Positions 1-25,553 are shown, numbered from the stretch's first letter. The stretch: DNA of 25,553 nt from a virus (IMGVR_UViG_3300009183_000337:1-25553), one strand, 5' to 3'. Notes: generated by a model from the letters alone, not told the origin. Translations and numbers: made by a program.

Positions 1-33
1 ATATTCTAATATATATAAAGGAAAATATAAAAT

Positions 34-16662: not shown

Positions 16663-16703
16663 AGTGTTTTTTAGTTTCCACAAGCGTCATTGCCTGTCCT
16701 TCG

Positions 16704-16731
16704 ATTATACAAAGAAAACGAGCAAGGACAA
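16704..16731 (-). promoter_or_regulatory. Promoter candidate for paralog A
   Basis: On the minus strand TTGTCC (16726-16731), 16 bases, and a perfect TATAAT (16704-16709). The mRNA leader would be about 40 bases. Confidence 0.5.
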
Positions 16732-16744
16732 CGGAAAACGGCTT

Positions 16745-16785
16745 CCGTCACACAAATGTTACAATTGGTTTTGGCACACTTCATG
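16745..16785 (-). promoter_or_regulatory. Shared leader element, copy 1
   Basis: The string CGTCACACAAATGTTACAA followed by GG and TTTTGGCAC aligns with the leaders at 18409 and 19522 (CGTCAC, ACAA, GG, CTTTRGCA in the same order). It lies upstream of a minus-strand cassette gene in all three cases and runs into the first TTGGCA hairpin. Confidence 0.45.
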
Positions 16786-16808
16786 CTCCCCAGCAAGTCC
16801 CATGCCAA
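16771..16808. repeat. TTGGCA/TGCCAA hairpin R1
   Basis: A 38-bp imperfect palindrome: outer arms TTGGCA and TGCCAA, inner arms TGCT and AGCA, loop CCCC. Nearly the same as R2, 45 bp away. Confidence 0.75.
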
Positions 16809-16815
16809 GTCTAGG

Positions 16816-16853
16816 TTGGCACACTTTATGCTCCCCAGCAGGTTCTATGCCAA
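16816..16853. repeat. TTGGCA/TGCCAA hairpin R2
   Basis: A 38-bp palindrome with the same arms and CCCC loop as R1. It ends 13 bp before the 39-bp element, mirroring the distance of R3 on the other side. Confidence 0.75.
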
Positions 16854-16866
16854 GTCCGTGGAAAGC

Positions 16867-16905
16867 ATAGTTTTCTGTTTTGGGGTCCCCAATTTGAAAA
16901 ACTAT
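16867..16905. repeat. 39-bp boundary palindrome, copy 1
   Basis: Arms ATAGTTT and AAACTAT, centre GGG-GTC-CCC. It lies in the middle of the control region between the divergent paralog genes and is flanked at 13 bp on each side by R2 and R3. The left arm match extends to 8 bp. Confidence 0.9.
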
Positions 16906-16918
16906 CGTCGCCCATAGG

Positions 16919-16960
16919 TTGGCACACTTCGTGCTACGCCCGCAGCAAGAGTCGTGCCAA
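16919..16960. repeat. TTGGCA/TGCCAA hairpin R3
   Basis: A 42-bp imperfect palindrome with arms TTGGCAC and GTGCCAA, inner TGCT and AGCA, and an 8-nt loop ACGCCCGC. It is the first of two hairpins on the side of paralog B. Confidence 0.75.
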
Positions 16961-16965
16961 GTCGG

Positions 16966-17007
16966 TTGGCATGGTTCATGCTACGCTCGGAGCATAAGCT
17001 GTGCCAA
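16966..17007. repeat. TTGGCA/TGCCAA hairpin R4
   Basis: A 42-bp palindrome with arms TTGGCA and TGCCAA, inner ATGCT and AGCAT, and loop ACGCTCGG. Period to R3 is 47 bp. Confidence 0.75.
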
Positions 17008-17095
17008 GTGCCCGTTAACGTAGAAAATTAAAGTAGATTCAGTTCTTGTATATATATAGTAGTATGTTAAATTGTCATAGTCAGTTTGGTTCTTA

Positions 17096-17122
17096 TATAA
17101 ATACAACGTCACTATATAAATA
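17096..17122 (+). promoter_or_regulatory. Tandem TATAAATA boxes before paralog B
   Basis: TATAAATA occurs at 17096-17103 and 17115-17122, each followed by CAAC. The second ends 7 bases before the ATG at 17130, so an mRNA starting from it would have almost no leader. The octamer equals the T4 late-promoter core; whether the phage sigma factor encoded at 12786 uses it is inference. Confidence 0.5.
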
Positions 17123-17129
17123 CAACAGC

Positions 17130-17576
17130 ATGATTGATCTTAATAAAGTAAAAGCGGGCCATATAGCAACAGTGCTAATGGACGGCGAATATAAATTGAA
17201 TAAGGGCGGACGTAGCGGGCTTCCTATCAATATATATAACGGTCGTGTTACACGCGACTTTCGTTTTGCTATAACGCTTGCGGGCGAGGAAACGTATAAC
17301 AATAAGTATCCTGATGCAGTTGGTAAGCCTAATTGGTTTACCTTCGTTAGAGACGGTTTAGTGAGAAACAATAAGACCGGCCAATTGTATTTGGCTGGGC
17401 TTCCTACTAATAGCAAGAAGAATAGGTTTGACCTATTAGTAGACAATCAGCCTATTACACAAGAGCAATACGAATATATACAACAATATCGCTCTGACAA
17501 AGAGGAACTGAAGTTTCTCACTATTGCAGTTGATAATTGTATTAACGTAGAAGATCCTGCAATATACGTTGGCTGA
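17130..17576 (+). CDS. Conserved cassette protein, paralog B (unknown)
   Basis: A 148-residue protein homologous to the gene at 16198-16662: KAGHIATVLMDGEYKLNKGG at residues 8-27, GRVTRDFRF, AGEETYNN, TGQLYLAGLPT and LLVDN near the C-terminus match in order. The start at 17130 is preferred over an in-frame ATG 28 codons upstream because it aligns with the paralog and because the upstream stretch contains the TATAAATA boxes. It is AT-rich and uses many ATA and TTA codons, in contrast to paralog A. No known domain recognised. It shares its unit with the small genes at 17644 and 17835, and a terminator follows at 17899. Confidence 0.75.
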   Translation: MIDLNKVKAGHIATVLMDGEYKLNKGGRSGLPINIYNGRVTRDFRFAITLAGEETYNNKYPDAVGKPNWFTFVRDGLVRNNKTGQLYLAGLPTNSKKNRFDLLVDNQPITQEQYEYIQQYRSDKEELKFLTIAVDNCINVEDPAIYVG

Positions 17577-17643
17577 TATACAAACAGTGGGGCGCGAATA
17601 CTTAAAACGCGCAATTAATAACAACCTCTTATCCTAATACAAT

Positions 17644-17838
17644 ATGACCGAATCAGTATCTTTAATGGAATTAGTACATATACAATTAGCTCTTAAAGCT
17701 AGAATCATTCATTGTGATAAACAAATAGCCGATTGTAAAGAACTTGATATTGATCCCGATATTTGGATTAATACAAAAGCAAATATAAACAGCGGCCTCC
17801 TCAAGTTAGAAGGCAAATACAATAAGGGCGAGCTATGA
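17644..17838 (+). CDS. Small helical hypothetical protein
   Basis: A 64-residue, mostly helical protein (SLMELVHIQLALKARIIHCD at the N-terminus), with two Cys and a Lys-rich end. No family recognised. It begins 67 bases after paralog B in the same direction and its stop TGA overlaps the ATG of the tiny membrane peptide gene (ATGA), so the two are translationally coupled. No Shine-Dalgarno sequence precedes it; TAATACAAT lies immediately before the ATG. Confidence 0.6.
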   Translation: MTESVSLMELVHIQLALKARIIHCDKQIADCKELDIDPDIWINTKANINSGLLKLEGKYNKGEL

Positions 17839-17882
17839 TAATACTATTGCTAATCCTACTGATAGTAGGAATGACTAGATAA
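17835..17882 (+). CDS. Tiny single-span membrane peptide
   Basis: A 15-residue frame, MIILLLILLIVGMTR, too short for ordinary gene finders. Its ATG overlaps the stop of the 64-residue gene in an ATGA junction and the terminator follows 16 bases later, so it is in the unit. Almost every residue is Ile, Leu or Val up to the Gly, as in a very short transmembrane helix with positive end. A similar tiny frame occurs at 24221-24292. Function unknown; peptides like this can tune membrane proteins or act as toxins. Confidence 0.45.
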   Translation: MIILLLILLIVGMTR

Positions 17883-17898
17883 GGCCCTTAGTGACAAA

Positions 17899-17924
17899 CC
17901 CTCTGTAGTAATACAGGGGGTTTC
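17899..17924 (+). terminator. Terminator of the paralog B unit
   Basis: CCCTCTGTA, loop GTAA, TACAGGGGG, followed by TTTCTTGTTT. The transcribed loop GUAA is a GNRA tetraloop. One internal mismatch. Confidence 0.8.
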
Positions 17925-17929
17925 TTGTT

Positions 17930-17951
17930 TATAAATAGTTGTTTATAAATA
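17930..17951 (+). promoter_or_regulatory. Second tandem pair of TATAAATA boxes
   Basis: Two copies of GTTTATAAATA, with TATAAATA at 17930-17937 and 17944-17951 (period 14), lie between the terminator of the previous unit and boundary element 2. No plus-strand gene follows directly, so their use as promoters is doubtful. Confidence 0.35.
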
Positions 17952-17955
17952 AGCG

Positions 17956-17994
17956 ATAGTTTTCTGTTTTGGGGTCCCCAAAGTGAAAAACTAT
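17956..17994. repeat. 39-bp boundary palindrome, copy 2
   Basis: Arms ATAGTTT and AAACTAT, centre GGG-GTC-CCC; differs from copy 1 in only three positions. It lies between two convergent units (17644-17882 plus strand, 18130 minus strand) with a terminator on each side. Confidence 0.9.
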
Positions 17995-18000
17995 GAAATC

Positions 18001-18014
18001 AGTGATAAATCACT
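18001..18014. repeat. 14-bp palindrome AGTGATAAATCACT, copy 1
   Basis: Six-base arms AGTGAT and ATCACT around AA, starting 7 bp after the end of boundary element 2. An identical copy sits at the same offset after element 4. Confidence 0.7.
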
Positions 18015-18026
18015 AGTATTACTATT

Positions 18027-18075
18027 ATTTGGCCTTTATTTGCGTAATATTTGCGTAATGTTTGATTAATATTTG
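18027..18075. repeat. 11-bp-phased ATTTG array I
   Basis: Boxes at 18027, 18038, 18049, 18060 and 18071 read ATTTG, ATTTG, ATTTG, GTTTG, ATTTG. Every step is exactly 11 bp. The last box runs into TTGACA. The array begins 33 bp after element 2 and ends directly before the terminator of gene 18130. Confidence 0.8.
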
Positions 18076-18080
18076 ACACA

Positions 18081-18109
18081 AAAAACCCCGATGCATTACT
18101 GCAACGGGG
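18081..18109 (-). terminator. Terminator of gene 18130
   Basis: CCCCG-A-TGCA, loop, TGCA-A-CGGGG, with a T-run on the minus strand. The transcribed loop is GUAA. Confidence 0.85.
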
Positions 18110-18129
18110 TTTGTGTTTATTACTATCTA

Positions 18130-18333
18130 TCAATCTTCGTTGTCATAGTACGGCTCAAAGTCTTCGTCTGAAGCCCGCCGCCGCTTGTGGCAAGGCTCGC
18201 AAACGGCGCTCCGTGCCTTTGGAGCCATCAGGACGGAGCAGCAAGCGCAACGGAAGCGCTCTGCGCCGTTCTCATCGATTTGGGGGCAACCGCCAGCTTC
18301 GTGACCGCAACAAGGATAGTCTTCGCATCTCAT
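18130..18333 (-). CDS. Small zinc-ribbon protein, EDYPCCGH type
   Basis: A 67-residue protein with the N-terminal signature CEDYPCCGHEAGGCP and a second Cys cluster, FRCACCSVL ... CEPCHKRR. The total of Cys pairs fits one or two zinc ribbons. Short proteins with this EDYPCCGH start occur in many phages and plasmids; no function is established to my knowledge. The C-terminal 12 residues are acidic. The gene is clearly GC-rich compared with its AT-rich neighbours, which suggests a foreign source. Its ATG overlaps the stop of an 11-codon leader frame. Confidence 0.65.
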   Translation of the reverse strand: MRCEDYPCCGHEAGGCPQIDENGAERFRCACCSVLMAPKARSAVCEPCHKRRRASDEDFEPYYDNED

Positions 18334-18365
18334 AGAGTTTTTAGTTGATTTTTACCGTCGCCCAT
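18330..18365 (-). other. Possible leader peptide frame
   Basis: ATG at 18365 opens a frame of 11 residues, MGDGKNQLKTL, whose TGA overlaps the ATG of the zinc-ribbon gene. Such an ATGA junction could couple translation. It may be chance. Confidence 0.25.
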
Positions 18366-18400
18366 AATTTTACTAGGTTTTCGTCTGAGATCAACAACAA

Positions 18401-18455
18401 AAGTGATTCGTCACACAAAAGTAACAAAGGACTTTAGCACGGTCCTTGCTTCACC
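18401..18455 (-). promoter_or_regulatory. Shared leader element, copy 2
   Basis: A 55-base block directly beside boundary element 3, alike in sequence and place to 19514-19567. Shared parts are AAGTGATTCGTCAC, TAACAAAGGACTTT, GCA and TTGCTTCACC. On the minus strand it contains TGCTAAAGT, a possible extended -10, and a GTGA-CGAA-TCAC hairpin that would be in the RNA leader of gene 18130. Confidence 0.6.
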
Positions 18456-18494
18456 ATAGTTTCCCGTTTTGGGCAGCCCAAAAGTAAAAACTAT
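18456..18494. repeat. 39-bp boundary palindrome, copy 3
   Basis: Arms ATAGTTT and AAACTAT. The centre is GGG-CAG-CCC, so the 9-bp core GGGCAGCCC is fully symmetric around A. It lies between the promoter side of gene 18130 and the terminator of gene 18539. Confidence 0.9.
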
Positions 18495-18496
18495 GA

Positions 18497-18522
18497 AAAA
18501 ACCCTATTGTATTACAATAGGG
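18497..18522 (-). terminator. Terminator of gene 18539
   Basis: A perfect 9-bp stem, CCCTATTGT with ACAATAGGG, triloop ATT, and a run of seven A before it (T on the minus strand). It starts 3 bp after boundary element 3. Confidence 0.9.
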
Positions 18523-18538
18523 CTGTTGTATTACTATT

Positions 18539-18796
18539 TCACGAAAAGTACTTAATCGTTGAAGTATTTACTTGAACGCCCTTTCGTAGCTTGTTTTTGA
18601 CACTAACCAAACGAGTTAAGCGTTCGTTCCAAAACTCTAAGCTCTCAGGATTATAAGTAGCGGTGGCGCTATAGTAATTGACTCGGCCAGTCAAAAACTC
18701 GATGTCCTTATTAATAGAACAGAACAAGCCAAAGCTTTCGTCCCAATCGAGGTACTCGACTTGGGTTTCTGTTTCGTTTTCGATAGTTTCGATCAT
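18539..18796 (-). CDS. Small acidic hypothetical protein
   Basis: An 85-residue acidic, helical protein (YLDWDESFGLFCSINKDIEF, then WNERLTRLVSVKNKLRKG). No known domain. Its own promoter (18830-18857) and terminator (18497-18522) make it a complete single-gene unit between boundary elements 3 and 4. The mRNA leader of about 30 bases has no Shine-Dalgarno sequence. Function unknown. Confidence 0.6.
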   Translation of the reverse strand: MIETIENETETQVEYLDWDESFGLFCSINKDIEFLTGRVNYYSATATYNPESLEFWNERLTRLVSVKNKLRKGVQVNTSTIKYFS

Positions 18797-18829
18797 ATTG
18801 TTTTTAAATAAGTATTAACTTACGATAAG

Positions 18830-18857
18830 ACCTTAACACAGCCACACAGGATGTCAA
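18830..18857 (-). promoter_or_regulatory. Sigma-70-like promoter of gene 18539
   Basis: TTGACA (18852-18857), 16 bases, TAAGGT (18830-18835), with an A/T-rich UP-like tract AAAAATAAATT before the -35. The same TTGACA plus tract, with the same spacing, occurs at 20205-20232. Confidence 0.75.
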
Positions 18858-18890
18858 AATTTATTTTTGACCAATTTACATACTTAATAC

Positions 18891-18929
18891 ATAGTTTCCG
18901 CATTTGGGCTCCCCAAAAGTAAAAACTAT
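18891..18929. repeat. 39-bp boundary palindrome, copy 4
   Basis: Arms invariant, centre GGG-CTC-CCC. It lies upstream of the promoter of gene 18539 and downstream of the unit 19055-19471. Confidence 0.9.
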
Positions 18930-18935
18930 CAAATT

Positions 18936-18949
18936 AGTGATAAATCACT
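18936..18949. repeat. 14-bp palindrome AGTGATAAATCACT, copy 2
   Basis: Identical to 18001-18014 and at the same 7-bp offset from the end of its boundary element. Confidence 0.7.
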
Positions 18950-18962
18950 ATTCGTTATTCAT

Positions 18963-19000
18963 ATTTGGTTGTTATTTGCAGAACATTTGATTAATATTCG
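18963..19000. repeat. 11-bp-phased ATTTG array II
   Basis: Boxes at 18963, 18974, 18985 and 18996 read ATTTG, ATTTG, ATTTG, ATTCG, each step exactly 11 bp. It starts 34 bp after element 4 and ends before the terminator of gene 19055. Confidence 0.8.
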
Positions 19001-19004
19001 ATAT

Positions 19005-19034
19005 AAAAAAACCCCACTGTTTGTTACAGCAGGG
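19005..19034 (-). terminator. Terminator of gene 19055
   Basis: CCC-CA-CTGT, loop, ACAG-CA-GGG with an A7 run before it on the plus strand (T on the transcribed strand). Same design as 18081-18109. Confidence 0.75.
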
Positions 19035-19054
19035 TTATTGTATTTGTTTAGCGT

Positions 19055-19471
19055 TTATTCATAATGCGGGCGATCTTCCGCGCTATTGTCACATTCGCCC
19101 CTGACCTGCTCAATTGTGACCCATAGCTCGCCCCCGTCGCTCCACCCCGTAGGGATGTAGCCTTCATCGTGATAAGCTGTGTCATATTCCTCGCCCGGAA
19201 GGGATGCCATTGCGCGATGCCGCGCCGGGGCTTCCTCGCGATTTTCGCGCTCCACTTCCGCCTTGGCCTTTTCAAGCCAAGCCTCGGCGGTTTCCATTGC
19301 AGGGAAATAGACAGAGCCCGCCAACGTGTTGCGGTTGTACCACCAGCCGCCTTCTTCTGGACCACCGTAGTTCTGACTGCGGCGATACACGCTGACCCAC
19401 GCGCCTTGCGGCACACTGAAGTCAGGGTGGGATTCGATTTTTTCGATCAAGGACTGCATTGTTGCTTTCAT
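19055..19471 (-). CDS. Conserved phage hypothetical protein
   Basis: A 138-residue protein. I start it at MKATMQSLIEK because a -10-like TATTGT lies 7 bases upstream, the same spacing as in other cassette genes. Recognisable segments are YGGPEEGGWWYNRN (about 35-48), a helix with AWLEKAKAEVERENREEA, and the C-terminal GYIPTGWSDGGELWVTIE and RPHYE. I associate this combination with a conserved family in phages of varied hosts, with no known function. The gene is much richer in G and C than the flanking AT-rich units, a sign of acquisition from another genome. It is a single-gene unit between elements 4 and 5. Confidence 0.65.
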   Translation of the reverse strand: MKATMQSLIEKIESHPDFSVPQGAWVSVYRRSQNYGGPEEGGWWYNRNTLAGSVYFPAMETAEAWLEKAKAEVERENREEAPARHRAMASLPGEEYDTAYHDEGYIPTGWSDGGELWVTIEQVRGECDNSAEDRPHYE

Positions 19472-19478
19472 CGTCCAC

Positions 19479-19507
19479 ACAATAACACACACACAAGGGA
19501 AAGCAAG
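19479..19507 (-). promoter_or_regulatory. Promoter for gene 19055
   Basis: TTGCTT (19502-19507), 17 bases, TATTGT (19479-19484), then 7 bases to the ATG. Supports the shorter start and a leaderless or nearly leaderless mRNA. Confidence 0.5.
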
Positions 19508-19513
19508 GGAGAA

Positions 19514-19567
19514 AGTGATTCGTCACCAGAATTTAACAAAGGACTTTGGCATGAGATTTGCTTCACC
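19514..19567 (-). promoter_or_regulatory. Shared leader element, copy 3
   Basis: 54 bases next to boundary element 5, similar to 18401-18455 in order and position: AAGTGATTCGTCAC, TTAACAAAGGACTTT, GCA and TTGCTTCACC are shared. It lies between element and promoter of gene 19055. Confidence 0.6.
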
Positions 19568-19606
19568 ATAGTTTCCCGATTCGGGCTCCCCAAAAGCAAA
19601 AACTAT
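19568..19606. repeat. 39-bp boundary palindrome, copy 5
   Basis: Arms invariant, centre GGG-CTC-CCC. The left half contains CCCG-ATT-CGGG, an alternative small hairpin that competes for the central GGG. Confidence 0.9.
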
Positions 19607-19607
19607 G

Positions 19608-19637
19608 AAAAACCCCTATTGTATTACTACAACGGGG
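19608..19637 (-). terminator. Second, distal terminator of the 19726-20170 unit
   Basis: CCCC-TA-TTGTA, loop TTAC, TACAA-C-GGGG, with an A-run on the plus strand. The minus-strand loop is GTAA. It lies between boundary element 5 and ATTTG array III, behind the primary terminator at 19687. Confidence 0.7.
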
Positions 19638-19644
19638 GTGTCTT

Positions 19645-19682
19645 ATTTGACCGTTATTTGTTTAATATTTAAATAATATTTG
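19645..19682. repeat. 11-bp-phased ATTTG array III
   Basis: Boxes at 19645, 19656, 19667 and 19678 read ATTTG, ATTTG, ATTTA, ATTTG, with exact 11-bp steps. The last runs into TTGACA as in array I. Confidence 0.8.
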
Positions 19683-19686
19683 ACAC

Positions 19687-19715
19687 AAAAAAACCCGCCG
19701 TATTGCTACAGCGGG
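19687..19715 (-). terminator. Terminator of the 19726-20170 unit
   Basis: CCCGC ... GCGGG stem with TA/TA inner pairs and a GCAA-type loop on the transcribed strand, preceded by an A7 run on the plus strand. Ends 10 bases from the stop codon. Confidence 0.8.
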
Positions 19716-19725
19716 ATTGTATTAC

Positions 19726-19971
19726 TTATGGTTCATTGATATATATATCCCATTCTTTTATAGCGTTGGTGTTGATGTAATCATCAATCTCAACAATAGA
19801 ATCAGCATCGAAGACTGATTTATCATAAGCAACCATAACAACATACTGCTGACCATTCTCAATATCATAATCAAATATCACTTCAACAGCAATATCAGAG
19901 CCAAACACATTAACTTTGAAATTGCAGACATTGGTGAAGGTGTTTTTAAGAGAGCCATCTATGATTTTCAT
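19726..19971 (-). CDS. Small hypothetical beta-rich protein
   Basis: An 81-residue protein, with the start at MKIIDGSLKNTF one base after the stop of the preceding gene (19973). Alternating hydrophobic and acidic residues (FKVNVFGSDIAVEVIFDYDI, QYVVMVAYD) suggest a beta sheet. No domain recognised. Together with the 65-residue gene upstream it forms a two-gene unit between elements 5 and 6. AT-rich codon use like the virion genes. Confidence 0.6.
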   Translation of the reverse strand: MKIIDGSLKNTFTNVCNFKVNVFGSDIAVEVIFDYDIENGQQYVVMVAYDKSVFDADSIVEIDDYINTNAIKEWDIYINEP

Positions 19972-19972
19972 A

Positions 19973-20170
19973 TTAGAAACGGTTGAGATGCAATTCGTAC
20001 AATTCTTGAAAGTATAAATCAGTGATACTATCACACTCAGCTTCTGTTAAATCGCGATTCAATTGTTTATGAAAAGCGGAATCGACATATGCATTGGCGG
20101 TTCCAGAGTTAGTGATAATCACTTCCTCTAAATTACTAAACTTAATTGTGGTTTCTGTATTGATACTCAT
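19973..20170 (-). CDS. Small hypothetical protein
   Basis: A 65-residue protein. The start at 20170 (MSINTETTIKF) is chosen because the promoter at 20205-20232 places the mRNA start just upstream; an earlier in-frame ATG would overlap that promoter. Seen are a beta-like N-terminal half (TTIKFSNLEEVIITNSGTAN) and a helical, acidic C-terminal half (LTEAECDSITDLYFQELYEL). Unknown function. It is the first gene of its unit and divergent from gene 20413 across boundary element 6. Confidence 0.6.
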   Translation of the reverse strand: MSINTETTIKFSNLEEVIITNSGTANAYVDSAFHKQLNRDLTEAECDSITDLYFQELYELHLNRF

Positions 20171-20204
20171 GTTGTGTTTATAAATGAGAACTACCCGACA
20201 GTGA

Positions 20205-20232
20205 ACTTTAGCACACCCACGCAACCTGTCAA
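20205..20232 (-). promoter_or_regulatory. Sigma-70-like promoter of the 19726-20170 unit
   Basis: TTGACA (20227-20232), 16 bases, TAAAGT (20205-20210), preceded by the tract AAAAATAAATT. Nearly the same promoter as 18830-18857. The leader is about 30 bases and ends TTATAAACACAAC-ATG. Confidence 0.75.
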
Positions 20233-20265
20233 AATTTATTTTTAATTAGTTCTGATACCTAATCG

Positions 20266-20304
20266 ATAGTTTGCCGATTTGGGCTCCCCAGATGCGAAAA
20301 CTAT
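20266..20304. repeat. 39-bp boundary palindrome, copy 6
   Basis: Arms invariant, centre GGG-CTC-CCC, with the only G at position 8. It lies between two divergent promoters, with no terminator beside it. Confidence 0.9.
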
Positions 20305-20340
20305 GGCGGAGCATAGGCGGAAGCACTTGTCAAGACCTTT

Positions 20341-20378
20341 ATTTGCACTTTATTTGCGCCAAATTGAAATAATTTTTG
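20341..20378. repeat. 11-bp-phased ATTTG array IV
   Basis: Boxes at 20341, 20352, 20363 and 20374 read ATTTG, ATTTG, ATTGA, TTTTG in 11-bp steps, starting 37 bp after element 6. Here the last box overlaps a real-looking -35 (TTGACA at 20376), so the array is placed like an activator site for gene 20413. Confidence 0.7.
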
Positions 20379-20403
20379 ACAATCTCCACCGATCTGATAA
20401 CTT
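20376..20403 (+). promoter_or_regulatory. Promoter of gene 20413
   Basis: TTGACA (20376-20381), 16 bases, TAACTT (20398-20403), then 9 bases to the ATG. The -35 is the end of ATTTG array IV. Confidence 0.65.
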
Positions 20404-20412
20404 GTCTCTGTA

Positions 20413-20679
20413 ATGAAAACACAACACGAAAGCATCGATACCGCCAGCGATCTCCGCGACCTCATCGCGCAAAGCCCACAAGAGACTAAGTCTTCTGAGT
20501 TGTCTTGCGTCAAGATCCGGCACGAAGACCTTGCCGAAATGCGCCTCTTGATTCTCCGCTTGCAAAATGACATTTCCTATGTTGAGGGCATGGCCCTAGA
20601 AACGAAGATCGACATCAAGAATAGGGCCGAAAAAATCCTTGACAAGACCAATTGGTTCAAAGTCAAGTTCGTTGACTGA
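20413..20679 (+). CDS. Small helical hypothetical protein
   Basis: An 88-residue, charged, helical protein (about residues 35-65 form RHEDLAEMRLLILRLQNDIS, a possible coiled coil). No family recognised. Single-gene unit: promoter at 20376, start with almost no leader, terminator at 20690 directly before element 7. Its GC content is moderately higher than that of the 19.7-20.2 kb genes. Confidence 0.6.
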   Translation: MKTQHESIDTASDLRDLIAQSPQETKSSELSCVKIRHEDLAEMRLLILRLQNDISYVEGMALETKIDIKNRAEKILDKTNWFKVKFVD

Positions 20680-20689
20680 AAAACCTCAC

Positions 20690-20709
20690 CCCCGCTTCGG
20701 CGGGGTTTT
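20690..20709 (+). terminator. Terminator of gene 20413
   Basis: CCCCGC, loop TTCG, GCGGGG followed by TTTTA. The T-run leads straight into the boundary element at 20710. Confidence 0.85.
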
Positions 20710-20748
20710 ATAGTTTCCCGTTTCGGGCACCCCAGACGCGAAAACTAT
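20710..20748. repeat. 39-bp boundary palindrome, copy 7
   Basis: Arms invariant, centre GGG-CAC-CCC. Left half has CCCG-TTT-CGGG, a perfect alternative hairpin. It lies between terminator and promoter of two plus-strand units. Confidence 0.9.
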
Positions 20749-20787
20749 CCCATGCGCCCCGTGTGCGAAAATAATTTTACTTTTTAT

Positions 20788-20815
20788 TTGACTCTCTCCC
20801 CGCAAAGCTTAAGCT
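20788..20815 (+). promoter_or_regulatory. Promoter of gene 20825
   Basis: TTGACT (20788-20793), 16 bases, TAAGCT (20810-20815), then 9 bases to the ATG, the same layout as gene 20413. Confidence 0.55.
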
Positions 20816-20824
20816 GTAGAGGTA

Positions 20825-21025
20825 ATGAAAAGAACAATTGAGTTTTACAACCGCGAAGTCTACGGGACTACCCGCGAGTACGTCGCCAATGAAAACGACG
20901 CAAAAATCATTTTTCAGTTGACGGGAAAGAAAACCGTCACTAGTGTTGAGAGAGAGTTGATCAGAGACCTTTCTGGTGGGCTGGTTGACTTCAAACAAAT
21001 TTTGCCTCCTTCGAAGTCGAAGTGA
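20825..21025 (+). CDS. Small basic hypothetical protein
   Basis: A 66-residue basic protein (MKRTIEFYNREVYGTTREYV at the start, KSK at the end) with a strand-helix look. The segment YVANENDAKIIFQLTGKKTV and ERELIRDLSGG could be a small DNA- or protein-binding module, but I do not recognise it. It is the only gene between elements 7 and 8 and is followed by about 200 non-coding bases with structured repeats. Confidence 0.6.
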   Translation: MKRTIEFYNREVYGTTREYVANENDAKIIFQLTGKKTVTSVERELIRDLSGGLVDFKQILPPSKSK

Positions 21026-21110
21026 GGGCACTGGTAACGGCATGGTACGCAGGGAGAACTTGCGGCGGGTGTTGATAGTTGGGCCTTTAGAAACACCGTT
21101 ACCCTTTTAG
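21026..21110 (+). ncRNA. Structured RNA candidate, three-stem
   Basis: Downstream of gene 20825 the outer stem GGTAAC (21033) with GTTACC (near 21098-21103), a middle hairpin with loop GAGAA at 21048-21064, and a hairpin GGTGTT/AACACC (21068-21097) could fold into a three-way junction followed by CTTTT. It may be a 3'UTR structure or terminator, or a separate RNA. No covariation except in the GAGAA hairpin (see 21127). Confidence 0.35.
21048..21064 (+). promoter_or_regulatory. GAGAA-loop hairpin, copy A
   Basis: Stem CGCAGG with CTTGCG, loop GAGAA, preceded by CATGGT. Same flanks and loop as copy B at 21127. The loop fits the GNRNA pattern of lambdoid boxB hairpins. Confidence 0.5.
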
Positions 21111-21126
21111 TTTCGCGCTCATGGTG

Positions 21127-21143
21127 CGTGGGGAGAACCCACG
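21127..21143 (+). promoter_or_regulatory. GAGAA-loop hairpin, copy B
   Basis: Perfect stem CGTGGG with CCCACG, loop GAGAA, preceded by CATGGT at 21120. Compared with copy A, stem positions 3 and 4 changed on both sides (C-G to T-A, A-T to G-C), which preserves pairing and supports an RNA role. Confidence 0.55.
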
Positions 21144-21156
21144 ACAGGGATTTTTG

Positions 21157-21191
21157 TCAAGAGTTTTTTTGATGATTTACTCTTGAAATTT
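21157..21191 (+). terminator. Possible terminator before element 8
   Basis: TCAAGAGT (21157-21164) pairs with ACTCTTGA (21179-21186) around a 14-base loop, followed by AATTTT. A weak terminator of the 20825 unit. Confidence 0.4.
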
Positions 21192-21222
21192 TGACCCTCA
21201 TGAAACAAGTGCGAAACTTTCG

Positions 21223-21261
21223 ATAGTTTCCGGGTTTGGGCACCCCGAAAGAAAAAACTAT
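21223..21261. repeat. 39-bp boundary palindrome, copy 8
   Basis: Arms invariant, centre GGG-CAC-CCC. It lies 17 bp before the -35 of the lysis gene. Confidence 0.9.
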
Positions 21262-21277
21262 TAAATCGAAAAAAAGT

Positions 21278-21305
21278 TTGACTCTCTCTCTGAATCTGAT
21301 ATTTT
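21278..21305 (+). promoter_or_regulatory. Promoter of lytic enzyme gene
   Basis: TTGACT (21278-21283), 16 bases, TATTTT (21300-21305), 7 bases to the ATG. An mRNA start at the A of ATG is expected. Confidence 0.65.
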
Positions 21306-21312
21306 CTCTCAT

Positions 21313-21705
21313 ATGAACAAAATCGCTTTATCTCTATTTGCTGTCGCCCTTGTCGCCCTTGGTTCCTCGCGCCGAAACTATGGCACCAAAGAAGACTTGT
21401 TTCGCGCAATGGCTGCTGTCGAAAGCAGCAACAACCCCAAGGCAGTCAACGCTAAAGAAACTGCCCTTGGTCTTTACCAAATTCGCCCAATGTATTTTCT
21501 TGACTCTGGGGTCAAGGGAAGCCATACTCAGGTTTATGAGCCTACAGTTGCCCGTAAAGTCTGTGAAAAATACTTTATGAGATATGAACCCAAAGCCTTT
21601 GCTAATAATGACATAGAGACTTTGGCTCGGCTTCATAACGCTGGCCCTAATTGGCGTAAAAGAGATACTGATAAATATTGGAATAAGATTAAAAAGCACT
21701 TGTAA
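21313..21705 (+). CDS. Secreted lysozyme-like lytic transglycosylase
   Basis: A 130-residue endolysin candidate. Residues 1-18 are a signal peptide or signal-anchor (Lys, then IALSLFAVALVAL, small residues). Residues 28-125 fit a minimal SLT/goose-type lysozyme domain: AAVESSNNPKAVN with likely catalytic E37, ALGLYQIRPMYF, and ARLHNAGPNW near the C-terminus. It would cleave peptidoglycan between N-acetylmuramate and N-acetylglucosamine. The N-terminal signal implies export by the host and no need for a holin, or a pinholin-released type. It leads a three-gene unit with 21707 and 21896 between elements 8 and 9. The start ATG sits 7 bases after the -10. Confidence 0.8.
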   Translation: MNKIALSLFAVALVALGSSRRNYGTKEDLFRAMAAVESSNNPKAVNAKETALGLYQIRPMYFLDSGVKGSHTQVYEPTVARKVCEKYFMRYEPKAFANNDIETLARLHNAGPNWRKRDTDKYWNKIKKHL

Positions 21706-21706
21706 T

Positions 21707-21895
21707 ATGAATACAGAACTAAAAATTACTATCCAAGAAGTAGTACAACTTCGTGAAGCTTTAATTAATTTAGAACGCCGTATTAAACAATTAATGGCGT
21801 TAGAGCATAAAGACTGGCATAAACTGTATGATTTAGATATCCAGTCAGTAGAAAAAGGTAAACAAATACTAAAACAAATAATACAAAGAGATTAA
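21707..21895 (+). CDS. Small coiled-coil protein, lysis unit
   Basis: A 62-residue protein that is nearly all helix with heptad-like Leu/Ile (VVQLREALINLERRIKQLMA, LYDLDIQSVEKGKQILKQII). No membrane segment. It starts one base after the stop of the lytic enzyme and ends directly at the start of the next gene, so all three are cotranslated. It could be an accessory of lysis, but that is guesswork from its place. Confidence 0.6.
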   Translation: MNTELKITIQEVVQLREALINLERRIKQLMALEHKDWHKLYDLDIQSVEKGKQILKQIIQRD

Positions 21896-22231
21896 ATGAA
21901 TAACCTTTTAGTGATTAACCCATACAAGAAAGATGACGTTTGGGCTATTGATGATGAATTGCGCGAATTGAAAAGAGAGCCTTTGGTTCTTGGTATTGAT
22001 TCGATGTTGGATTATTGGAATAATAAACTAATCGCTAATAACAAACTAAAAGTTATATTCTCTAATAATACTTTTCCTAAATATAATTTTCATTTGAAAT
22101 GGCTTAGAGAAGAAAACGGCGGCAATTGGTACTATTCAAAGGATCTAAAAGAAGAGGGCTGGCTTTGCCCCGCTCTTTATAAATACTTTGAGATTGCCCC
22201 TAAAGAGATATTTATGAATATCGCTAAGTAA
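21896..22231 (+). CDS. Hypothetical protein, lysis unit
   Basis: A 111-residue protein. Seen are an N-terminal acidic stretch (YKKDDVWAIDDELRELKREP) and a Trp-rich C-terminal half (FHLKWLREENGGNWYYSKDL, GWLCPALYKYFEIAPKEIF). The first half resembles phage proteins that start INPYKKDDVWAIDDE, but I cannot give the family or function. No signal peptide. Terminator at 22238 follows immediately. Confidence 0.6.
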   Translation: MNNLLVINPYKKDDVWAIDDELRELKREPLVLGIDSMLDYWNNKLIANNKLKVIFSNNTFPKYNFHLKWLREENGGNWYYSKDLKEEGWLCPALYKYFEIAPKEIFMNIAK

Positions 22232-22237
22232 TCAATC

Positions 22238-22254
22238 CCCGCTTCGGCGGGTTT
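22238..22254 (+). terminator. Terminator of the lysis unit
   Basis: CCCGC, loop TTCG, GCGGG, followed by TTTC. It stops two bases before boundary element 9. Confidence 0.75.
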
Positions 22255-22255
22255 C

Positions 22256-22294
22256 ATAGTTTCTGGGATTGGGCACCCCGAAGGAAAAAACTAT
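22256..22294. repeat. 39-bp boundary palindrome, copy 9
   Basis: Arms invariant, centre GGG-CAC-CCC. Between terminator and promoter of plus-strand units. Confidence 0.9.
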
Positions 22295-22321
22295 CATGGC
22301 AAAGAAAAGTGAGAAAGAGCG

Positions 22322-22350
22322 TTGACACTTCTCCTTCCAAGGGCTAATGT
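22322..22350 (+). promoter_or_regulatory. Promoter of gene 22359
   Basis: TTGACA (22322-22327), 17 bases, TAATGT (22345-22350), 8 bases to the ATG at 22359. The alternative ATG at 22347 lies inside the -10, so it cannot be the start of this transcript. Confidence 0.75.
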
Positions 22351-22358
22351 CTCCCTGC

Positions 22359-23180
22359 ATGAATAACACTGTTAAGAACTCAGTCCGCCACCTCATTTGC
22401 AAGGTCTATGACCAATTTGCATCTAACAAAGACAAGGTTAGTGTTTTATCACTTCCCGGCACTAGTTGGGAATTTGAAAAGTATGTGTTAAACAATTACG
22501 GCTTTCGTAATTTGTTTGGTTCTCAATTAGAAATGGATCTTGTTTGCTTTGAACGCGATCACGCTACATATGAATATAACGTAGAAGAGCGTTATGATGT
22601 GTTAGATAATCATAATGTCAGCTATATAAACGAACACGTTGAACAGGCAATGGAAGTCTATACACAACAGGAAAATGTATTTAGTTGGTTTGATTTCTGC
22701 GGCCAGCCTTCTTTCTTTGATCTTGATTATCATAGGGCAACTGGTAAACAAGTTCAGGTATTCACCTTTACTACCAATTGGCGCAGACGGGAAAATGTCC
22801 CTGCTGCAATACTTGAAGACGCAAAGAAGGTTAGCCCTGCTCAGGCTATCCTTAATTACTTTAAGCCGCTAATGGATGAGCGCGGCTATCATTTGCTCTT
22901 TGCAATTGAATATGTGGGTGTTAAATCTCCCATGCTTTGCTTCTGTATTACTAATGACCACGATGTGTTAAATCATAACTATAAGGTCGAGAATATGAAT
23001 GCCAAGAAGCAAGCTTCTGTTGTCACACAGAAGACTATTATTCCCAAGACTAATAAGCAAGGTATCTATGAAGCCCTGAAGTCTGGTATCAATGAATCAG
23101 TCATTATGGTTACATATGGTATCAATATACATCAATTAGCCGCACATAAGGCTTGGCTCACTATGTGGGGCCAATGGTAA
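22359..23180 (+). CDS. Hypothetical protein with Rossmann/methyltransferase-like look
   Basis: A 273-residue protein, the largest in the cassette region and alone in its unit. Possible methyltransferase-like landmarks: VSVLSLPGTSWEFEKYVL (motif I-like, near 30-47), an acidic strand end MDLVCFERD, and FSWFDFCGQPSFFDL (near 108-122, where motif IV would be), then VFTFTTNWRR. The order and spacing fit a Rossmann-fold SAM-dependent enzyme, but the glycine-rich loop is poor, so it could be inactive or unrelated. The C-terminal 45 residues (KQGIYEALKSGINES, NIHQLAAHKAWLTMWG) look like a helix-turn-helix or lid. The start at 22359 is set by the promoter. Function unknown. Confidence 0.55.
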   Translation: MNNTVKNSVRHLICKVYDQFASNKDKVSVLSLPGTSWEFEKYVLNNYGFRNLFGSQLEMDLVCFERDHATYEYNVEERYDVLDNHNVSYINEHVEQAMEVYTQQENVFSWFDFCGQPSFFDLDYHRATGKQVQVFTFTTNWRRRENVPAAILEDAKKVSPAQAILNYFKPLMDERGYHLLFAIEYVGVKSPMLCFCITNDHDVLNHNYKVENMNAKKQASVVTQKTIIPKTNKQGIYEALKSGINESVIMVTYGINIHQLAAHKAWLTMWGQW

Positions 23181-23194
23181 TAGGATAGTGTAAC

Positions 23195-23212
23195 GGGGGG
23201 CTTCGGCCCCCC
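23195..23212 (+). terminator. Terminator of gene 22359
   Basis: GGGGGGC, loop TTCG, GCCCCCC, very stable, followed by TTCATAG with few T. It ends four bases before element 10. Confidence 0.75.
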
Positions 23213-23215
23213 TTC

Positions 23216-23254
23216 ATAGTTTCCCGGTCTGGGCACCCCAAAGCCCAAAACTAT
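23216..23254. repeat. 39-bp boundary palindrome, copy 10
   Basis: Arms invariant, centre GGG-CAC-CCC. It lies between two convergent terminators. Confidence 0.9.
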
Positions 23255-23260
23255 CAAAGA

Positions 23261-23280
23261 AAAACCCCGCCGAAGCGGGG
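23261..23280 (-). terminator. Terminator of the 23289-23899 unit
   Basis: CCCCGC, loop CGAA, GCGGGG (UUCG on the transcribed strand), with the run of A/T on the minus-strand 3' side. It lies 9 bases from the stop of gene 23289. Confidence 0.85.
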
Positions 23281-23288
23281 CTTGTGTT

Positions 23289-23441
23289 TTATTCTTTAGT
23301 AGATAAGTGAAGCTGTTCTGTTATTAAATCTAATACAAAAACAATATCTGATAATATTTCTTTTATCTCAGAGTCTTTCTCTTTATTGAGCCGTATATCT
23401 ATTTCTTCTAATTTGTTTAAGATTTCGTCAAAGGGATTCAT
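23289..23441 (-). CDS. Small coiled-coil protein
   Basis: A 50-residue frame, too short for usual tracks. Sequence MNPFDEILNKLEEIDIRLNK and then acidic and hydrophobic heptads (EIKEILSDIVFVLDLITEQL) indicate a single amphipathic helix or coiled coil. It lies two bases after the stop of gene 23444. Both starts are preceded by AGAAGAATAAAT. Unknown function. Confidence 0.55.
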   Translation of the reverse strand: MNPFDEILNKLEEIDIRLNKEKDSEIKEILSDIVFVLDLITEQLHLSTKE

Positions 23442-23443
23442 AT

Positions 23444-23572
23444 TTATTCTTCTTCCTCGTCTAAGCTAGTTATTACTGGGCCATCGTAATGAAAAACTAT
23501 TTCAAAACTAGTATCAGATTCAAGAATAGGAGGAGGGGGAGGAATTGACATTATTAACTCTGTTATGGTCAT
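23444..23572 (-). CDS. Small proline-rich acidic protein
   Basis: A 42-residue frame with five consecutive prolines (IPPPPPILE, residues 10-18) and an acidic tail of four Glu. The middle (FEIVFHYDGPVITS) is strand-like. It lies between two genes of the same unit with the same start context, AGAAGAATAAAT-ATG, so it is likely expressed. Function unknown; could bind a proline-recognising partner. Confidence 0.5.
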   Translation of the reverse strand: MTITELIMSIPPPPPILESDTSFEIVFHYDGPVITSLDEEEE

Positions 23573-23593
23573 ATTTATTCTTCTTTCTTATTA

Positions 23594-23899
23594 TCAAATC
23601 CCAACAAGTGATTCCAACTCAAAGTAATTCAAATCCTCCCTTGCTGTCCAGAACAAATCGCGCTCAATTTTCAAACCAAATCGCCCCCTGATAGCTTCCA
23701 TTTCGCCCAAGGTAGCAATACCGCCCCATTCGACGCACCCCATGCCCAAATCAGCGAAGCCATGCAGGATGCCGCCTTCGATGCCTGTAATGAGCCAAGT
23801 TGCTGCGCCCCAAGGGGTGAATAGTTTGCAGAGGGGCACATAGCTATCGGCCCCTGCCTTGCTGAGTTTTTCCATCAATTCGACAGTAAGTAGTTTCAT
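23594..23899 (-). CDS. DUF2958-like protein
   Basis: A 101-residue protein whose sequence resembles DUF2958: MKLLTVELMEKL at the start, PLCKLFTPWGAATWLITGIE in the middle, and a C-terminal part with EMEAIRGRFGLKIERDLFW. These match the family's start MKLLT, the FTPW motif and the GxFGLxIERDLxW end. DUF2958 genes are common on plasmids and integrative elements and sometimes phages; the function is unknown to me. The start is set by the -10 hexamer 7 bases upstream (23907-23912). It heads the three-gene unit and is richer in G+C than its partners, suggesting it was acquired. Confidence 0.75.
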   Translation of the reverse strand: MKLLTVELMEKLSKAGADSYVPLCKLFTPWGAATWLITGIEGGILHGFADLGMGCVEWGGIATLGEMEAIRGRFGLKIERDLFWTAREDLNYFELESLVGI

Positions 23900-23906
23900 C
23901 AGGGAC

Positions 23907-23935
23907 AAGGTAATGGGAAACGGCGCGAGAGTCAA
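23907..23935 (-). promoter_or_regulatory. Promoter of the DUF2958-like unit
   Basis: TTGACT (23930-23935), 17 bases, TACCTT (23907-23912), 7 bases to the ATG. Confidence 0.65.
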
Positions 23936-23945
23936 ATTTAATTTG

Positions 23946-23984
23946 ATAGTTTTTTACTTTGGGCTCCCCAATTCCGAAAACTAT
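23946..23984. repeat. 39-bp boundary palindrome, copy 11
   Basis: Arms invariant, centre GGG-CTC-CCC. The flank between arm and core is the most divergent of all copies (TTTACTTT). Confidence 0.9.
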
Positions 23985-23986
23985 AG

Positions 23987-24016
23987 AAAAACCCCCTAGT
24001 GTTAAACACTAGAGGG
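23987..24016 (-). terminator. Terminator of the 24040-24928 unit
   Basis: CTAGTG and CACTAG around a five-base loop, extended by C-run/G-run, with the A-run on the plus strand (T on the minus strand). It follows element 11 after two bases. Confidence 0.75.
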
Positions 24017-24039
24017 TGCTTTATTTGATATTTGTTCTG

Positions 24040-24234
24040 TTATTCTTTAATCTTTGGAGTCTTATTTGCAAACCTGCTGACTTTTAAACTAATGTTCCTG
24101 AGACTTTTCTTAATTTCTGACAATTTGACTTTGAGTTTAATTCGTTTCTTTTGTAAAGACCTAGCGCTTTTCTTCATTACCTTTAGGTCAGTGATTTTCT
24201 TTTCTAGTTTTGCTATTTGTTTATCTTTTGTCAT
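24040..24234 (-). CDS. Small basic coiled-coil protein
   Basis: A 64-residue protein that is nearly all Lys, Leu, Ile and Ser with heptad spacing (KQIAKLEKKITDLKVMKKSA and so on). It is a basic coiled coil, perhaps DNA- or membrane-associated. It is the last gene of its unit; its ATG lies inside the tiny membrane-peptide frame in another phase, so the two are coupled. No family recognised. Confidence 0.55.
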   Translation of the reverse strand: MTKDKQIAKLEKKITDLKVMKKSARSLQKKRIKLKVKLSEIKKSLRNISLKVSRFANKTPKIKE

Positions 24235-24292
24235 TGTGTTTGTTTCCTATTATTATTCCTATCAATACTACTATTAGTAGTAATACTATCAT
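24221..24292 (-). CDS. Tiny single-span membrane peptide
   Basis: A 23-residue frame, MIVLLLIVVLIGIIIGNKHN and DKR. It starts four bases after the stop of the Gp88-like gene and overlaps the start of the coiled-coil gene, so it is set in a tight operon. It looks like a short membrane helix with a polar, basic C-terminus. It resembles the 15-residue peptide at 17835-17882 (MIxLLLI...IG start), and may be a distant relative. Confidence 0.45.
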   Translation of the reverse strand: MIVLLLIVVLIGIIIGNKHNDKR

Positions 24293-24295
24293 GAT

Positions 24296-24928
24296 TTAAT
24301 GTAATTTGTAGCTTACGTTTTGCACTGATTTATTCCAACAAGCGCGGCAAGTAAGGCATTTGTTATCTTGATTAGAAGCAGGACAATTAAATGTCTGATC
24401 TTTTGACACGCCGGAAGTAGTTAACCCTAATGTTTTGGCAATAGCGCTAGGTGCATTGCCATTAATCATTAGAGAAGAAAGTCGAATAGTTAAATTAGAA
24501 GGAATAGTCCCATACAATTTAACATAAGTGCTGACAATAGAATACTCCCGAGTAGGAAGCCAGAAAGTAATGTTAGGAAGATTAATTGCAATCTGACATA
24601 TCTTTCTTAAATGAATTACCGATTGAATATCACCACTATCGTGCCAACGAAAGAATCCACTCTTTTCTTTACCTGCAATAGCAATAGTCATTGCTTCAAC
24701 CCATTCGGGCTTATCTATAGAATCAAATCGCTTTTGTAAAGCGTTTCTGACATTGGGCATATTATAAAAGCCCTTTAACGCATAACACTTAGAGCAAACA
24801 CTATTCTTTACGGGCACTAATTTTGCGCCGGTTTTGCAATGCTTTGCGGGGGTAGAATAAGATCGGCATGGCATTTTGCTGGGCGCAGAAAGTCCGCCAA
24901 CAAAATCAAGGGCGTAGTCAAGGTTCAT
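24296..24928 (-). CDS. Gp88-like phage protein
   Basis: A 210-residue protein that I believe belongs to the phage gene-product-88 family (Pfam PF17338). The start MNLDYALDF is set by the promoter at 24936-24964. Seen are CRSYSTPAKHC, TGAKLVPVKNSVCSKCYALK (about 38-57) with several Cys, then FFRWHDSGDI, ITFWLPTREYSIVSTY, LTIRLSS, and a C-terminal Cys group in CPASNQDNKCLTCRACW. The Cys pattern fits metal or iron-sulfur binding. The biochemical role is not known to me. It leads a three-gene unit between elements 11 and 12. Confidence 0.65.
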   Translation of the reverse strand: MNLDYALDFVGGLSAPSKMPCRSYSTPAKHCKTGAKLVPVKNSVCSKCYALKGFYNMPNVRNALQKRFDSIDKPEWVEAMTIAIAGKEKSGFFRWHDSGDIQSVIHLRKICQIAINLPNITFWLPTREYSIVSTYVKLYGTIPSNLTIRLSSLMINGNAPSAIAKTLGLTTSGVSKDQTFNCPASNQDNKCLTCRACWNKSVQNVSYKLH

Positions 24929-24935
24929 CGTGGAA

Positions 24936-24964
24936 AGAGTAGCCCAAAGCAGCGACCATTGCAA
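24936..24964 (-). promoter_or_regulatory. Promoter of the Gp88-like unit
   Basis: TTGCAA (24959-24964), 17 bases, TACTCT (24936-24941), 7 bases to the ATG. The -35 is weak. Confidence 0.5.
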
Positions 24965-24985
24965 ACATTTTCACAAAATTATTTG

Positions 24986-25024
24986 ATAGTTTCTGGCTTC
25001 GGGGTCCCCAATCTGAAAAACTAT
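24986..25024. repeat. 39-bp boundary palindrome, copy 12
   Basis: Arms invariant, centre GGG-GTC-CCC as in copies 1 and 2. It is the last copy in the window. Confidence 0.9.
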
Positions 25025-25038
25025 GGTGACAACAAAAG

Positions 25039-25062
25039 AGCCCCAATTATTAAATCGAGGCT
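25039..25062 (-). terminator. Terminator of the 25117 unit
   Basis: On the minus strand AGCCTCGATT pairs with AATTGGGGCT (two wobbles), loop TAAT, followed by CTTTTGTTG. It is 54 bases past the stop of gene 25117. Confidence 0.7.
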
Positions 25063-25072
25063 TATTTGCCTT

Positions 25073-25110
25073 ATTTGCGGTTAATCTTTTTAATATTTAG
25101 AGCTTATTTA
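25073..25110. repeat. Degenerate 11-bp-phased array V
   Basis: ATTTG at 25073, ATCTT at 25084, ATTTA at 25095 and ATTTA at 25106 keep the 11-bp step of the other arrays, though two bases are off in one box. It lies after element 12, beyond the terminator. Confidence 0.4.
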
Positions 25111-25116
25111 TTCATA

Positions 25117-25290
25117 TTATTCAATCTCAATAAAAAAATGATCTTTGTCTAGTACGTCATCGACAAGAGAAACATCGCAACTATAAACAGGATAATATTC
25201 ATCAACTGCTCCATTATACACAGTAACAGTTTGGTTTAGCTGTTCCGCACTCAATTCATTCAAAGACTCAAGTAATTCTTTGTATGTCAT
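25117..25290 (-). CDS. Small conserved phage-type hypothetical protein
   Basis: A 57-residue frame read by eye: TYKELLESLNELSAEQLNQT, then VTVYNGAVDEYYPVYSCDVS and an acidic end (VDDVLDKDHFFIEIE). The KELLESL-N-L-S-x-EQLNQTV pattern with DEYYPV and a C-terminal LDKDHxF(I/L) recurs in many short phage and bacterial proteins with unknown role. Start ATG at 25290 is 21 bases after the preceding gene's stop. Terminator at 25039-25062. Confidence 0.65.
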   Translation of the reverse strand: MTYKELLESLNELSAEQLNQTVTVYNGAVDEYYPVYSCDVSLVDDVLDKDHFFIEIE

Positions 25291-25311
25291 ATTACTATTT
25301 AGTTAACTGTT

Positions 25312-25553
25312 TCAATGAAAGAAGATTCGTGATTCGTCTTTGAATGTAGCCTTGTCCCCAGCTTCATTCCATTCGACTCCATAGGTCATGCCTTCTTCGA
25401 CATGGTGCTTGTGTAGATAGTTGAAGCCTCTATATTGCTTTGCTTCCATCAATAGATCAGTCACGAAGAACTGGAGAGTCCTGCGTTGGATTGTAGCCTC
25501 ATTCTTGCTGGTGGTGAAGAAGTGATTAACTTTCTCTTTCACCGATTCCAGAT
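25312..25553 (-). CDS. Hypothetical protein, N-terminus cut by the window edge
   Basis: At least 76 residues of a basic to neutral protein: VKEKVNHFFTTSKNEATIQ, then LQFFVTDLLMEAKQYRGFNY, HVEEGMTYGVEW, and the end SRIFFH. The frame remains open to the end of the window, and the only possible start inside it is a GTG at 25542; the true start may lie outside. Function unknown. It is the gene before 25117 in the same direction. Confidence 0.55.
   Translation of the reverse strand, partial: LESVKEKVNHFFTTSKNEATIQRRTLQFFVTDLLMEAKQYRGFNYLHKHHVEEGMTYGVEWNEAGDKATFKDESRIFFH

Follow-up and report, generated by a model that had tools for sequence, protein, structure and literature searches.

The window, by which we mean the whole stretch of DNA analysed here, is a whole 25.5-kb virus record (25,553 nucleotides), from an incomplete genome, without a close match among named phages, and judging from the metagenome records its source is probably freshwater. 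Its late genes lie on the minus strand and include a terminase, a PhoH-like gene and a match to sigma-70 region 2; the best named-phage match of the terminase was Microcystis phage MaeS, at 24% identity. The right third of the window consists of small, mostly single-gene early cassettes with 39-bp boundary elements (BEs) between them, of which we counted 12, spanning positions 16867–25024. A scan of bacterial genomes for the BE returned one match, in Butyricimonas, which names no host. The arrays of short boxes that concern us here lie among these cassettes, with the following features around them.

17956–17994, plus strand: BE beside array I, ATAGTTT-N8-GGGNNNCCC-N8-AAACTAT (hairpin z −2.9)
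18001–18014, strandless: palindrome AGTGATAAATCACT, between the BE and array I
18025–18081, plus strand: array I, five boxes at 18027, 18038, 18049, 18060 and 18071 (ATTTG four times, GTTTG once)
18083–18112, minus strand: terminator-like hairpin of the minus-strand gene 18130–18333, abutting array I, a layout kept in relatives
18891–18929, plus strand: BE beside array II
18936–18949, strandless: palindrome AGTGATAAATCACT, adjoining array II
18961–19004, plus strand: array II, ATTTG at 18963, 18974 and 18985, degenerate ATTCG at 18996
19010–19036, minus strand: terminator of the minus-strand gene 19055–19492, abutting array II
19568–19606, plus strand: BE beside array III
19643–19688, plus strand: array III, ATTTG at 19645, 19656 and 19678, ATTTA at 19667
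19694–19715, minus strand: terminator of the minus-strand gene 19726–20034, abutting array III
20266–20304, plus strand: BE beside array IV (hairpin z −3.2)
20339–20381, plus strand: array IV, boxes at 20341 and 20352, ATTG at 20363, then the TTTGACA of a −35
20398–20403, plus strand: −10 hexamer TAACTT, 16 bp past the −35 and 9 nt before the ATG at 20413
20413–20679, plus strand: early gene downstream of the array-IV promoter, 88 aa, without a PHROGs family match
25062–25109, plus strand: fifth array in degraded form, two boxes (25064 and 25073, step 9), 3′ of a terminator-like hairpin

Small arrays of TATTTG at an 11-bp repeat beside early gene cassettes are genuine. On re-count, the first boxes of arrays I to IV fall at 18027, 18963, 19645 and 20341, where the sequence-only reading had placed them, and they lie 33, 34, 39 and 37 bp past their BEs, matching its range of 33–39 bp. 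Its description of the steps as exactly 11 bp holds for array I (11, 11, 11, 11, the fourth box being GTTTG), array II (11, 11, then 11 to the degenerate ATTCG) and array III (11, 11, 11, the third box being ATTTA), degenerate boxes included, but not for array IV, in which steps of 11, 10 (to ATTG) and 12 (to the TTTG of the −35) sum to 33. The fifth array, which had been put at 25073 and called degraded, does consist of degenerate T-rich words after its first two boxes; it has a further box at 25064 and opens with a 9-bp step.

The part played by chance was assessed with shuffles that preserved the local dinucleotide content of the 8.9-kb early region (16700–25553). TTTG pairs 11 bp apart occurred 10 times, against a shuffled mean of 0.45 and a maximum of 3, which amounts to an excess of about 20-fold; three-box chains numbered 4 versus 0.01, four-box chains 2 versus 0, and the one five-box chain had no counterpart in the shuffles. 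Among the other periods from 9 to 13 bp, none was conspicuous for TTTG pairs relative to shuffles of this region. RNA folding of arrays I, II and IV was no better than that of shuffles, whereas array III gave a z of −2.35, unlike the other arrays; array III has a terminator-like hairpin on each side.

The arrays occupy two contexts, one 5′ of a sigma70-type promoter (IV) and the other between a BE and the terminator of an opposing gene (I–III). The promoter at IV comprises TTGACA (20376–20381), a 16-bp spacer, TAACTT (20398–20403) and the ATG at 20413, as expected from the earlier assignment of this TTGACA to gene 20413. Arrays I and III had likewise been described as leading into TTGACA, which they do, but only at IV is the array end followed by a −10 at 16–18 bp; past the TTGACA of I and III we saw no −10 or other promoter-like site, and found the terminator poly-A and hairpin instead. 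In the I–III-type arrays of relatives this position is not conserved, reading TTCGAT, TTTAAC, TTTGGC and others. A plus-strand (antisense) promoter at I and III, for which starts at 18073 and 19680 had been envisaged, was rejected because no −10 follows the TTGACA. Since arrays I–III are not at promoters, a plain activator role fails for them; the sequence-only reading had drawn the same conclusion from the opposite strand of the adjacent genes, whose terminators indeed abut the arrays. Where the array belongs to an IV-type promoter, its first box precedes TTGACA by 34 bp in 6 sequences and by 24 bp in 3, distances that differ by one helical turn.

Some other signals were noted in passing around the genes. 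TANNNT lies 6–9 nt upstream of the ATG in 22 of the 23 early promoters found (search window 4–14), which suggests that early mRNAs are leaderless or nearly so; this spacing concerns the promoters at BEs 20266, 20710, 21223 and 22256 (plus strand) and 23946 and 24986 (minus strand). Late genes listed with early promoters showed little sign of Shine-Dalgarno sequences. Repeated and inverted TTGGCA-N7-TGCT / AGCA-N7-TGCCAA motifs, which resemble the sigma54 −24/−12 spacing or a paired operator, occur around 16867 in the window and in relatives, and the T4-late-promoter-like TATAAATACAAC / TTTATAAACACAAC stand directly 5′ of an ATG at 17089–17130 and upstream of 20224 (minus strand).

Relatives were collected from viral contigs by a BE pattern scan, which yielded 23 stretches, and by the terminase, which yielded 80 loci; gene-based searches for distant relatives returned unrelated phages without the elements. 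The arrays recur in about 10 related phage contigs, each time adjoining a 39-bp BE, and none was found away from a BE elsewhere in the related contigs searched. In 113 distinct BE flanks, the spacings of TTTG pairs form peaks at 11 (30), 22 (20) and 33 bp (10). A relaxed three-box pattern run over 14 whole related records matched only in those with BE cassettes, and there within the cassette region; it detected no array in G002, G003, G004 and G006, the first of which has a second BE type with a 22-bp array, while the other three contain little of the cassette region.

Across 17 distinct I–III-type arrays, all 50 of the 50 steps fit 11 bp, and the arrays contain 3, 4 or 5 units, changing by whole units. 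The exact register runs from the first box up to the terminator poly-A in 17/17, arrays without TTGACA included. The distance from BE to array takes values of 33, 34, 38, 39, 43 and 44 bp, and a fixed helical phase between the two was looked for over these 33–44-bp gaps and not found. The AGTGATAAATCACT palindrome is present in nearly all I–III-type arrays of relatives. We then compared 17 distinct units picked by position alone, irrespective of whether TTTG was present. Columns 1–2 (TT) and 9 (A) were invariant, column 11 (A) nearly so and columns 3–4 (T, G/A) strongly conserved, whereas spacer columns 5–7 were near background, giving an 11-bp unit TTT(G/A)NNNNANA. Conserved box columns with a variable spacer are not what pure slippage without selection would favour, and unit duplication alone would keep the length multiples but leave the box columns unprotected; because the arrays compared are related, this test is limited in strength, and because the relatives are close, part of the conservation reflects shared descent.

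The array is tied to position and not to a gene. The array-I sequence stands at a convergent junction that continues into gene I in the window and into gene II in L188–L191. A link to a particular gene was rejected, since homologues of the genes beside arrays I and II have no array beside them in G001 (gene I) and G002 (gene II). The early cassettes themselves are permuted and partly inverted between the window (16800–25400) and G001, G005, G007–G009 and L003. Collinear blocks end near BEs or arrays, at a median of 77 bp from a BE versus 163 bp for random points, the block end points coming from related contigs and not being independent.

A sister lineage shows the boxes alongside different BE arms. 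In G002 and in the L185 and L186 contigs, the terminases are ~96–99% identical to that of the window, but the BEs are of a second type, with arms GAGAGTTGC...GCAACTCT around the shared GGGNNNCCC core. The arms ATAGTTT and GAGAGTTGC are entirely different and have switched together in nearly all copies per genome, a pattern that looks like a specificity change of a phage DNA- or RNA-binding factor. The arrays of this lineage are still built of TATTTG/TATTTA boxes. Its IV-type arrays retain 11 bp, while in the I-type array a 22-bp unit with sub-steps of 7 and 15 replaces the 11-bp box-to-box step, and L185 and L186 have I-type arrays whose lengths are exactly one such unit apart. The 11-bp period by which the sequence-only reading had proposed to judge close relatives is therefore kept with the same BE type, but gives way to the 22-bp unit in I arrays of the GAGTTGC type, the IV-type arrays there remaining at 11, a mixed outcome for that test. 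As the boxes are kept while the BE arms change, the factor that reads the boxes probably differs from the one that reads the BE arms. Two recognition systems, boxes and boundary arms, would be separable inside one phage family.

What is shown is that the arrays exist, keep their register, are conserved and occur in two settings; the binding of a protein, its type and its regulatory effect are inferred. The reading that we favour, at about even odds, is that the arrays are tandem same-face sites for a head-to-tail, oligomerising winged-helix or OmpR-type regulator that acts both at IV and at I–III. One subunit would occupy each 11-bp unit, made up of a 7-bp box WTATTTG/AATATTTG and 4 variable bp, and the likeliest binder would be an oligomerising winged-helix or OmpR-type regulator from elsewhere in the phage genome or from the host. 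At IV-type sites the protein would sit just 5′ of the −35 of the early promoter, assisting or gating RNA polymerase; at I–III-type sites it would be loaded between the BE and the terminator of the opposing cassette, and its role there may be that of a local silencer or insulator, unless these sites are a left-over of cassette exchange. Cooperative binding to one DNA face, as suggested earlier, is indirectly supported by the exact register, the whole-unit changes, the contrast between box and spacer columns, and the boxes outlasting the BE arms.

Searches for the binder covered contigs that are incomplete or of unknown completeness. The OmpR-type C-terminal domain (PF00486) had no significant match in 14 such contigs, HTH_17 (PF12728) none in 12 contigs of incomplete genomes and RHH_1 none in the contigs searched, whose genomes are also incomplete; among 69 early-region proteins from incomplete genomes, no clear DNA-binding regulator appeared in Pfam or among the PHROGs matches listed. 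It seems to us rather unlikely that a phage regulator polymerises on the 11-bp boxes and is loaded at the edges of shuffling early cassettes, at promoter and terminator ends alike, with the cassettes carrying their own loading site and the BEs changing specificity independently between lineages. The arrays hold register while genes, spacers and BE arms turn over, and their motif provides a clear, testable handle for tracing the binder in complete genomes. Operators made of tandem direct repeats are known for cellular regulators; in this uncultured phage clade they would form part of movable modules between genes.

The main rival for I–III is that these arrays are relics of cassette exchange, namely shortened remains of the sequence 5′ of IV-type promoters, left behind when an inverted cassette took the place of the gene, kept by recent common descent and repeat slippage and now functionless. 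We regard this as possible, though unlikely. TTTGACA still closes arrays I and III and several arrays of relatives, and units one and two are similar to IV (TTTATTTGcactTTATTTGcg); the permuted and inverted cassettes, the block ends close to BEs (77 versus 163 bp) and the tie to position over gene would also fit. A functionless remnant accounts less readily for the conservation of box over spacer columns and for a register held in 17/17 arrays, with or without TTGACA. It is quite improbable, in our judgement, that the arrays are UP-like elements, offering phased AT-rich sites to the C-terminal domain of the alpha subunit in the host's RNA polymerase, with no dedicated regulator: I–III have no promoter, other early promoters in the window have no array, and the strong G/A after TTT and the fixed 7+4 unit are unexpected for a loose AT-rich site. 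What speaks for such an element is the place of IV-type arrays, immediately 5′ of the −35 and with a distance of 34 or 24 bp to the first box.

The origin-like unwinding element raised by the sequence-only reading fared poorly. Replication iterons would share the tandem 11- or 22-bp repeats in AT-rich DNA, but each contig has more than one or two of the arrays, which without exception lie at cassette edges and in one case at a promoter, and in the window no replication gene was recognised nearby and no clear skew signal was seen, so that we find this function very improbable. Phased intrinsic curvature as the function itself is scarcely probable at all. Predicted with assumed wedge values, the 46-bp bend of I and IV is at about the 99th percentile of the window, but that of II and III no higher than about the 82nd; relative to composition-matched shuffles, one model raised only I (2.2%) and marginally IV (6.4%) and the other raised none, so the predicted bend was not well above shuffles in all arrays. 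The boxes are moreover T3 tracts, not A5–6 tracts. Curvature as the cause of the arrays was rejected as inconsistent between arrays and models, and what is left of the phased bending proposed earlier is weak, with I standing out from shuffles (~2%) and II and III not.

Returning to the reading of the arrays as tandem sites for an oligomerising regulator, we compared the locus with known systems. The 'mobile regulatory cassettes' of phage T4 (Arbiol et al. 2010, a paper cited in PMC4177764) reportedly combine an early promoter with a stem-loop between small early genes, which shuffle at these modules. The window resembles them in having promoter and stem-loop modules between small early genes, with gene shuffling there, and differs in that a conserved 39-bp BE, its arms specific to the lineage, takes the part of the stem-loop and is accompanied by phased box arrays. 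The stoperators of mycobacteriophages, each an asymmetric single site, differ from the BE, which is palindromic. Their likeness concerns the BE and not the arrays: stoperators are many copies of one binding motif scattered through a phage genome, and related phages can have different immunity types (PMC9283540, PMC6550527); the BEs likewise have many copies and types differing between relatives.

SARP regulators, which are OmpR-type, bind direct repeats that share one DNA face and follow each other at 11 or 22 bp, beside or over the −35 (PMC10936776), and the direct repeats of the window's clade are also spaced 11 or 22 bp, like the afs box. At SARP promoters, 8 bp separate the 3′ repeat from the −10, and afsS has a poor −35; the last box of array IV, in contrast, is a good −35, TTGACA, 16 bp from TAACTT, which matches neither this spacing nor a weak −35. 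BldC binds a variable number of AT-rich direct repeats head to tail, each subunit taking up about one turn (PMC5859096, PMC6428758, PMC11963761). Its sites have 2 to 4 or more repeats in the same orientation, one such site being CATTTGCAC (PMC5859096); the consensus is AATT-N3-4-C/G, with 9-bp sites. The arrays also vary in their number of same-orientation AT-rich repeats, from 2 to 5 units, but the unit is 11 bp with TATTTG and does not match the 9-bp consensus. They fully match neither family, differing from SARP sites in −10 spacing and −35 quality and from BldC sites in consensus and site length, and no such protein was found in the contigs searched, which are incomplete or of unknown completeness.

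Three-box arrays also occur in unrelated phages, in about 36 distinct cases, several of them within open frames. TTGAC lay within 40 bp downstream in 3 of the 36 and upstream in 0, too few for a general rule linking such arrays to a downstream TTGAC, which was rejected. In four unrelated phages (L117, L134, L151 and L171), 4–5 TTATTTG-N4 units followed by TTATTTTnnTTGACA adjoin terminase genes; these arrays read against the genes, and the portal gene is on the far side in 3 of the 4. At L172:4618–4735, three 11-bp TTATTTG/ATATTTG units lead straight into TTTGACTTGACTATAAT and a gene for what looks by eye like a ribbon-helix-helix protein, possibly an autoregulated relative of the array idea.
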